Positions 12,856-63,780 of a stretch of 63,780 nucleotides of DNA are shown here, in pieces (positions within the stretch are counted from its first letter, which is position 1; every line of letters starts with the position of its first letter). A program made the translations under genes and the position numbers. The stretch lies in assembly GCA_016869595.1 (NCBI GenBank), contig VGDT01000014.1:1-63780 (forward strand), in the 5' to 3' direction. The DNA comes from Alphaproteobacteria bacterium (lineage in GTDB: Bacteria; Pseudomonadota; Alphaproteobacteria; Rhizobiales; Beijerinckiaceae). The notes beneath the pieces are model-generated. The model did not search any database, was not told the DNA's origin, and saw only the letters and a list, made by a program, of their open reading frames with translations.

Positions 12856-13018
12856 GATGAAGCTATTTTACGCGCGCGGCGCCACTCCCTAACGCCATAG
12901 CCAAAGCAGAGCCCAGTCGCTTGACGCGCGGGTGCGCTGTCGCACTGCGTCTTGGCGACGCGACTCCTAAGGTCGCGATGCTCGCAAGATGCGGGTGACG
13001 GAAGAGGGGGAAACGATC

Positions 13019-13159
13019 ATGCGTCCGACGAACAACATCAGCTGCCTCGTCTTGGTTGTTTGCGTTCTTTTGCTGGAAGTCGCGGGCGCTGGCGCTTACC
13101 TCGCGTCAGCAAAGGCGAATCCCTCTGACGCTTGCTACGGCTATGCGATTTGCCAATAA
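13019..13159 (+). CDS. Small secreted peptide with CX5C tail, paralogue A
   Basis: 46 residues, below usual gene-calling size. The ATG is preceded by GAAGAGGGGGAAACGATC, a good ribosome-binding site. Residues 8-31 form a hydrophobic signal peptide or anchor ending LASA. The remaining tail is KANPSDACYGYAICQ. The tail motif D-x-C-[YF]-G-Y-A-I-C-[QE] recurs at the extreme C-terminus of the peptide encoded at 13333-13464. Between the two, the codons for the second Tyr, Ala and Ile differ only at third positions, which supports selection on the protein. Function unknown: the two Cys could form a small disulfide loop, bind a metal or be a modification site. Confidence 0.7.
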   Translation: MRPTNNISCLVLVVCVLLLEVAGAGAYLASAKANPSDACYGYAICQ

Positions 13160-13332
13160 ATTTTTATGTGCTCTGCAAAGTTTCATGGAACGCGCGTCCC
13201 GCTCCTGCGTTTTATTTTGCGAAAGGCCGGCGCGCCCAGAAATCTCGATGCTCGAAAGAGCGGAGACGAGGAGCGCCGCGCCTTTCAAAAATTTTGACAA
13301 CGGTTGAGCGAAAGGCGGAGGCGGGGCCCGTC

Positions 13333-13464
13333 ATGCGCAATTTGGCTTTGTATGCGATGCTTCTATTTATGTTCGCGGCGAGCGTTGCGAGCGCCGCGAC
13401 CTTTCTTACGCGCTCGTCGCCAAACGGCGACGATTTTTGCTTCGGCTACGCAATCTGCGAATAA
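13333..13464 (+). CDS. Small secreted peptide with CX5C tail, paralogue B
   Basis: 43 residues: signal peptide MRNLALYAMLLFMFAASVAS, cut probably after ASA, then a 22-residue mature peptide ending SSPNGDDFCFGYAICE. It shares CxGYAIC with paralogue A but has a different signal sequence, so it is not a recent exact duplication. The ATG follows GGCGGAGGCGGGGCCCGTC. A longer open frame reaches back to 13132 but would destroy the signal peptide and run through A-rich non-coding-like sequence. It is convergent with the membrane-protein gene at 13491-14057. Confidence 0.72.
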   Translation: MRNLALYAMLLFMFAASVASAATFLTRSSPNGDDFCFGYAICE

Positions 13465-13490: not shown

Positions 13491-14057
13491 TCATGCCGAA
13501 CGCTTTTGGCGTGCGAGTTCGCGTAAGCGTTCGACGCTTCGCATAAGCGCGCCGGCCTCGATGCCGATGAATCCTTCAATTCGCCGGCACAGGGCATCCG
13601 CCATCGCATAAACGCGTTGCTTATAAGGCGCGACGAGTTTGCTCGCCCATGCGCGAATGGCGAGGATGACGGTATAGAGTTGGCGAAAGCGCTCCATCTG
13701 CATCAGCTTGTCGCGACAGATATCGAAAAGAAACGACATGAAGCCGAGCGCCACGGTCTTGGCGAACAGGATCGTGAGAAGCCCGCTCAGGAAACGTCCG
13801 TGCGCGATGAGTTCGAAGCCCACCAGTTTTGCCGGCAGAATGGCGAAGAACGGAGCGATAAACACGCCGAGCGTCTTCATCGGCGTCAGAGTCGCAACGA
13901 AATCCTTAAGCCGCTGCACATAATGTTCGAGCTTGAGCGCGCGTCCGAGCGCATGGAGCCATTCGCTGAAATGGTCCCACAGCCAGGTTTCAATCAAGAA
14001 GAGGACGGCAAGCGCGAACCAGAAGCCGTCCTTTAGACGCCGCTTCCAATTTTCCAT
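13491..14057 (-). CDS. Membrane protein of unknown function
   Basis: 188 residues from the ATG at 14057, which has an excellent AAGGAGGAAGCG ribosome-binding site. One hydrophobic segment near the N-terminus (GFWFALAVLFLIETWLW), two more around residues 60-105 (LGVFIAPFFAILPAKLVGF, FLSGLLTILFAKTVALGF), then a long charged helical tail. I know no functional family for it. It is convergent with the CX5C peptide genes, with stops only 27 bp apart, but no functional link can be shown. Confidence 0.75.
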   Translation of the reverse strand: MENWKRRLKDGFWFALAVLFLIETWLWDHFSEWLHALGRALKLEHYVQRLKDFVATLTPMKTLGVFIAPFFAILPAKLVGFELIAHGRFLSGLLTILFAKTVALGFMSFLFDICRDKLMQMERFRQLYTVILAIRAWASKLVAPYKQRVYAMADALCRRIEGFIGIEAGALMRSVERLRELARQKRSA

Positions 14058-63599: not shown

Positions 63600-63780
63600 T
63601 TTCTTGCGCTCGATGTTCGGTGTCTCGATGAGCGCGTTGTAGAAAACGGCCGGCCCCTATTCCGTGCGGCGGCGCACGCGGGAAAACGGCGGCGCCGTTA
63701 GGCCCGACGGGAGGGTCAGATTGATCGTGAATGGCGCAGCGAGCTTTGGTGGATGTCTAGGAAATGGTCTTGCTTGTGCA

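Follow-up and report, generated by a model that had tools for sequence, protein, structure and literature searches.

A family of short peptides with a conserved C-x-G-Y-A-x-C tail in Methylocystis and a sister genus of methane oxidisers

Two short genes with a common tail

The stretch of DNA analysed here (the window, 63,780 nt) comes from a Methylocystis and contains two short genes on the plus strand, pepA (13019-13159) and pepB (13333-13464), which are separated by 173 bp. pepA encodes 46 residues comprising a hydrophobic leader with one or more AxA sites, a linker and the tail D-A-C-Y-G-Y-A-I-C-Q, and its product ends in PSDACYGYAICQ. The 43 residues encoded by pepB are arranged likewise, with a hydrophobic leader carrying an ASA site, a linker and the tail D-F-C-F-G-Y-A-I-C-E; the product ends in GDDFCFGYAICE. 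For both genes we used the start codons common to relatives; an extra in-frame ATG upstream of pepA at 12989 is absent in most of these. A preliminary description of the window had reported two short genes with matching tails 173 bp apart, and both reading frames were found at that place. A six-frame scan of the window located C-x-G-Y-A-I-C in the pepA and pepB stretches only. In its general form, a family member consists of a hydrophobic leader and, at or close to the C-terminal end, the motif D-x-C-[FYLMA]-G-Y-A-[ILV]-C.

The codons for Tyr (TAT/TAC), Ala (GCG/GCA) and Ile (ATT/ATC) in the motif differ between pepA and pepB in third positions only, as had been described for both genes. The earlier view that this pattern reflects selection on the protein tail was confirmed by substitution analysis among relatives. 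Over the last ten codons of pepB (20 loci), pS was 0.856 and pN 0.004, and the last ten codons of pepA (17 loci) gave a dN/dS of 0.076, while the leaders were looser than the tails with dN/dS values of 0.32 (pepB) and 0.38 (pepA). These figures are pairwise averages in which kin sequences are counted repeatedly; the set omitted L062, which is nearly identical to the window, and a diverged clade, and for pepA also L094. Across 21 aligned tails (alignment A3) the residues D, C, G, Y, A and C never vary and the position after the first cysteine is occupied by F, Y or L, with A and M occurring in further copies; in the diverged clade, six residues extend beyond the second tail cysteine. Thus, the tail is under extreme selection, with almost exclusively silent changes. 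pepA and pepB are genuine genes and the twin tails are not a product of chance.

Distribution and genomic context

Of 101 related genomes, 27 contained the exact DNA pattern for C[FY]G[FY]AIC, and every one of these 27 is a Methylocystis (39 of this genus were sampled); the 62 genomes from other genera had no match, and a control pattern read backwards gave no match in any of the 101. With a family profile built from 15 sequences (alignment A2), 33 of the 39 Methylocystis were recovered at E <1e-4 from 397 genomes of the bacterial family. No profile match was obtained in the Methylocystis genomes G007, G013, G015, G025, G034 and G035, among which G013 is 81% and G015 73% complete, and an inspection of G007, G025, G034 and G035 for hidden copies revealed no tail at the loci examined; the membrane-protein gene that follows pepB in the window is located elsewhere in G025 and G034. 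In a sister genus, g82, the profile matched 10 genomes, with E values between 3.5e-14 and 2.5e-4. Beyond these two genera, the best match among the 397 genomes reached E 0.0029 and covered the leader only, and the eight weak profile matches that were inspected (G155, G195, G039, G277, G343, G278, G122 and G169) did not contain C-x-G-Y-A-x-C. A contig scan with D[FAP]C[FY]GYAI yielded 33 stretches, 18 of which were confirmed relatives. When the tail alone was searched for in the order (347 genomes) and the phylum (349 genomes), positives were confined to the two Methylocystis genomes in each draw, and none of ten weak matches (E 0.0038-0.049) combined leader and tail. One of these ten, a frame in L147 ending in DFCMGYALC before the stop, was attributed to chance, because its 16 codons run across another open frame. 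Plasmid records gave eight matches at E about 7-8, and the two that were inspected sit within a dehydrogenase-like ORF.

Homologues, which the preliminary description had proposed to look for, therefore occur outside the window and keep both tail cysteines. The nearest PDB entry to the PmoA of G154, a member of g82, is 3chx, which we take to be from M. trichosporium; g82 is therefore probably Methylosinus. Judged by these sequence searches, pepA and pepB belong to a new family of methane oxidisers that, within the genomes covered, is limited to two genera.

The gene order L,D-transpeptidase, pepA, pepB, membrane protein and lpd is widely kept in Methylocystis. The membrane-protein gene (13491-14057, minus strand) had been described as lying directly opposite the peptide genes; it is indeed on the other strand and convergent with pepB, but it does not overlap and lies 26 bp away. 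In g82, peptide and membrane-protein genes are convergent in six loci. The proposed co-occurrence of this gene with the peptides did not hold up. Its relatives were found in 47 of 69 genomes and in 11 of the 22 genera searched, peptide-free genera included, and it is missing from seven peptide-positive Methylocystis (G001, G012, G018, G023, G027, G030 and G033), two of which are only 59% and 64% complete. Owing to this wider distribution and these absences we rejected the membrane protein as a partner of the peptides; by its distribution it appears to be a wider, dispensable neighbour.

Six copies of the peptide gene are dispersed and have changing neighbours. L083 (3468-5129) is accompanied by a gene for an adenylate/guanylate cyclase-domain protein, which follows 87 bp downstream of the peptide copy in the same direction, and by eye L084 is similar in having such a gene. 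L088 adjoins NDH-2. Judged by eye, L080 has recombinase-like and oxidase-like neighbours and L082 redox-like and metal-like ones. L097 lies at a glutamate-synthase-like gene, and genes for an MNIO and a Buf1 protein are found roughly 3 kb away. Neither a receptor gene nor a constant partner gene was found at the peptide loci examined.

Upstream regions of pepB and pepA

pepB is preceded by an EcfG-type promoter sequence, GGAAC-N16-CGTT (13187-13211, plus strand). In a related genus, the consensus is given as GAAC-N16,17-C/GGTT (PMC4814048). GGAAC-N16/17-CGTT was present upstream of pepB in 20 of 25 loci and in all seven further genomes. Taken together, 27 of the 32 genomes examined carry it at a similar place, and these 32 comprise all but one of the 33 Methylocystis genomes with the peptide; in the exception, G023, the sole copy is a dispersed one that lacks the site. 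Of the five loci lacking it, L071 is on a short contig with diverging upstream DNA from a genome with 9% contamination, and L081, L085, L086 and L087 form one diverged clade. The spacers of the 20 sites are of 16 distinct sequences with a mean identity of 0.51. No EcfG site was detected at any of 19 pepA loci, even with the looser GAAC-N16,17-[CG]GTT, or at any of 13 other peptide copies, and the background rate in the window was 15 in 2540 stretches of 300 nt. Genome-wide, the bare consensus was not enriched (51 places compared to 58 for a reversed control), so that the case for the promoter rests on its conserved place. On this basis, pepB carries a predicted conserved promoter of the EcfG type, recognised by general stress sigma factors. 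The likeness to the EcfG/PhyR/NepR regulon (PMC4814048) consists in this promoter at a similar place; the regulon is not a protein family, however, and pepA lacks the promoter.

NepR (PF18557) is encoded in all nine genomes searched. In the window's own genome (G000) there are six matches, five of them above the cut-off; two of the six are located 288 and 213 bp behind strict EcfG sites on the same strand, whereas the other four are not. The six NepR matches of the window's genome (G036 has seven) compare to one or two in some relatives, suggesting that this genome has several stress-sigma switches.

In one clade, a possible hairpin can be drawn between the EcfG promoter and pepB (13221-13286, plus strand) for all 14 loci, with a GC-rich stem and a GAAA loop followed by a T-rich stretch. 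No compensatory change was seen among 27 pairs, and 9 of 200 shuffled sequences folded equally well (z -1.71). If it were a terminator, this element could weaken stress-driven transcripts.

Upstream of pepA, a different element was identified, the palindrome GTGCG-N4-CGCAC (12932-12945), 87 bp from the start of the gene. In 17 of 19 loci it lies between -81 and -89, and it is also present in three of three further genomes, where it reads as -105 when counted from an internal ATG; this gives 20 of 22 Methylocystis pepA loci. The g82 copies have the exact palindrome in three of six cases. Within the window's own genome it was found at 22 places versus four for a reversed control. A palindrome regulon was not adopted, as 12 of the 15 places inspected fall inside ORFs, which had been assigned by a crude ORF caller. 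A second copy in the window (63664-63677) is located upstream of another L,D-transpeptidase-like ORF.

Relation to known families and possible function

In agreement with the earlier statement that no described family was known, Pfam gave nothing near the cut-off and NCBIfam nothing above it (best E 0.049) for 15 members, and PADLOC had no match for 16. The PDB, in a library without chains of unknown residues, held no relevant relative, and Rfam had no match in the window. Among 16 members compared to PHROG, one matched an unnamed entry at E 0.0015 and one matched another at 0.069. A full-text search for FGYAIC, YGYAIC or LGYALC found no such peptide in the paper collection covered, nor were such peptides among the matches listed for Methylocystis small or secreted proteins. 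The family is thus absent from the searched libraries; it has a very tight motif for so small a protein and is tied to the general stress response by the putative pepB promoter. This promoter, the dispersed copies and a weak resemblance to Buf1 are new relative to the preliminary description.

The Buf1 resemblance emerged from three of the weak family-profile matches outside both genera (G155, G278 and G122; E 0.005-0.04), which are PF10048 (DUF2282, Buf1) proteins. Comparison of the peptide family by hhalign with six Buf1 sequences, three of which had been found by the peptide profile itself, gave a probability of 68.3 (E 4.7e-5), and with three independently chosen Buf1 sequences a probability of 21.8 (E 0.00098), compared to 3.3 and 0.2 for controls. 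The tail alone reached 6.3, so the likeness stems partly from the leader. Scored with a tail matrix, Buf1 segments obtained -7.7 to 1.6 bits versus 30-35 for the peptides, and the PF10048 model matched none of 15 family members at E up to 1. Both groups share [DE]-x-C-[FYW]-G-x-[AS]-[IL] around the first cysteine; Buf1 proteins, however, have four cysteines and a longer core, while the peptides have two conserved ones at C-x5-C, after which they stop. The leader, putatively of the Sec type, is similar in length to those of Buf1 bufferins and other Sec-exported MNIO precursors, including a CxxxxC group (PMC12452194). Leader and C-[FYW]-G-x-A taken together resemble bufferins, which are copper-binding modified peptides, only weakly, and we treat this as a lead, not as membership. 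In Buf1, the first cysteine, that of C-[FYW]-G, is disulfide-bonded and the central ones are modified (PMC12452194), so that even this lead would fit a disulfide in the peptide tail.

With regard to form, a simple rule applied without a control placed an AxA-type site 12-15 residues ahead of the first tail cysteine in 21 of 24 members (exceptions are L097, L089 and L196), and these sites recur although leader and linker sequences vary. The AlphaFold model has a helix at residues 2-26 and a flexible remainder, the tail being of low confidence (block pLDDT about 50, pTM 0.34). We favour the reading, to which we give a probability of roughly 0.4, that pepA and pepB encode lineage-specific exported microproteins of Methylocystis and its sister methanotroph genus, one of them stress-induced, whose tail is a disulfide heptapeptide loop used for binding. 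The N-terminal helix would act as a Sec signal or signal-anchor, and cleavage by signal peptidase I at the AxA site would leave roughly 22 residues. Once in the periplasm, an oxidising compartment, the two tail cysteines (C-x5-C) would pair in an intrapeptide disulfide and hold the turn [FYL]-G-Y-A-[ILV] in a rigid loop, which may dock on an envelope protein. Expression of pepB would belong to the EcfG general stress response and that of pepA would follow another control, and this dual control might keep an identical loop at hand in growth and stress. Export, cleavage, disulfide, docking, stress induction and function are all inferred. The exported, disulfide-looped peptide of the preliminary description is a sensible inference, and its interpretation as a whole is partly supported. 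A more specific version appears rather improbable to us: that the cyclised exported loop C-[FYL]-G-Y-A-[ILV]-C derives possibly from the first-cysteine segment of a bufferin minus its copper-binding core and is an envelope or intercellular ligand of type II methanotrophs, with one general-stress isoform and one under other control. If the bufferin resemblance is true, the family would reveal what a bufferin scaffold becomes without that core. The short tail offers a testable epitope.

Other explanations draw on the same material. The peptides might be minimal bufferin-like or other RiPP precursors, in which an unlinked enzyme such as an MNIO modifies the tail cysteines or tyrosine to give an exported copper ligand, or a competitor of bufferins for that enzyme. 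MNIO (PF05114) is common, being encoded in 40 of 42 genomes examined, and MNIO precursors often carry Sec signals (PMC12452194). The Buf1 matches and the profile comparison raised our estimate for this explanation, which nevertheless stays in the unlikely range, and left that for the disulfide loop as it was. Against it stand the low scores of the tail itself, the lack of PF10048 matches and the two cysteines instead of four. Furthermore, none of the four PF05114 matches in the window's genome is on its contig, and the MNIO closest to any peptide copy is at L097, 3.3 kb away, where it is accompanied by a Buf1 gene of its own. G003 (99% complete) and G008 (98%) have the peptide and no PF05114 match, while G007, G025, G034 and G035 have MNIO and no peptide. 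An obligatory modification by MNIO is thus not supported by the distribution. Methanobactin precursors are likewise short cysteine peptides of methanotrophs; they have no Sec signal peptide (PMC12452194), unlike the putative Sec-type leader found here. The bacteria are themselves copper-dependent, and some dispersed copies share contigs with metal-transport genes (L084, CusB/HlyD domain), as might be expected if the two unmodified thiols were periplasmic ligands of Cu(I) or a different soft metal. At other dispersed copies the neighbours are different, however, and a C-x5-C pattern in which G-Y-A never varies would, to our knowledge, be unusual for a metal site; we hold this role to be quite improbable. 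Methanobactin precursor genes adjoin mbnB and mbnC.

The helix at 2-26 would also suit an uncleaved single-helix subunit, with the leader as a lasting membrane anchor and the tail as a fixed part of an envelope complex. In both of the canonical sister-genus copies tested, no AxA site stands at the usual distance and the hydrophobic stretch is longer, so a membrane anchor is as likely there. The frequent AxA sites and the lack of a matching PDB chain argue against this arrangement, and for the family we regard it as doubtful. Type II pMMO structures contain an unassigned helix. An identity of the peptide with it, as an obligate pMMO subunit, was rejected on the distribution, and neither PDB support nor, in the paper collection covered, literature on a supernumerary helix was found. 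In 25 genomes of the two genera, including 15 of the 39 Methylocystis, pmoA occurred without the peptide in G007, G025, G034 and G035 (90-100% complete) and in G013 (81%), and the peptide occurred without a PF02461 match in G003, G008, G020, G023 and G028 (the last three 66-89% complete). This mismatch in ten genomes makes an obligate part of pMMO unlikely. Hok-type small membrane toxins have about 45-50 residues, one helix and cysteines. A toxin of a type I toxin-antitoxin pair would thus agree with the size, single helix, cysteines and dispersed copies, but selection acts on the tail and not on the helix, no Pfam or PADLOC match was obtained, and two syntenic copies are retained across the genus; we judge it very improbable. 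That the frames are chance ORFs or an RNA element, for which the hairpin in the pepB leader could speak, has a negligible chance given the silent changes in the tail codons and a reading frame conserved across two genera.

Several side observations were made. The nearly complete genomes G003 and G008, one of which measures only 2.1 Mb, have no match to PF02461 (pmoA) or PF05114, and possibly represent Methylocystis that no longer oxidise methane by pMMO. L230 and L236 each contain two Buf1-like precursors in tandem. In the window's own genome, a Buf1 gene (L238:661-942) adjoins an MNIO gene.
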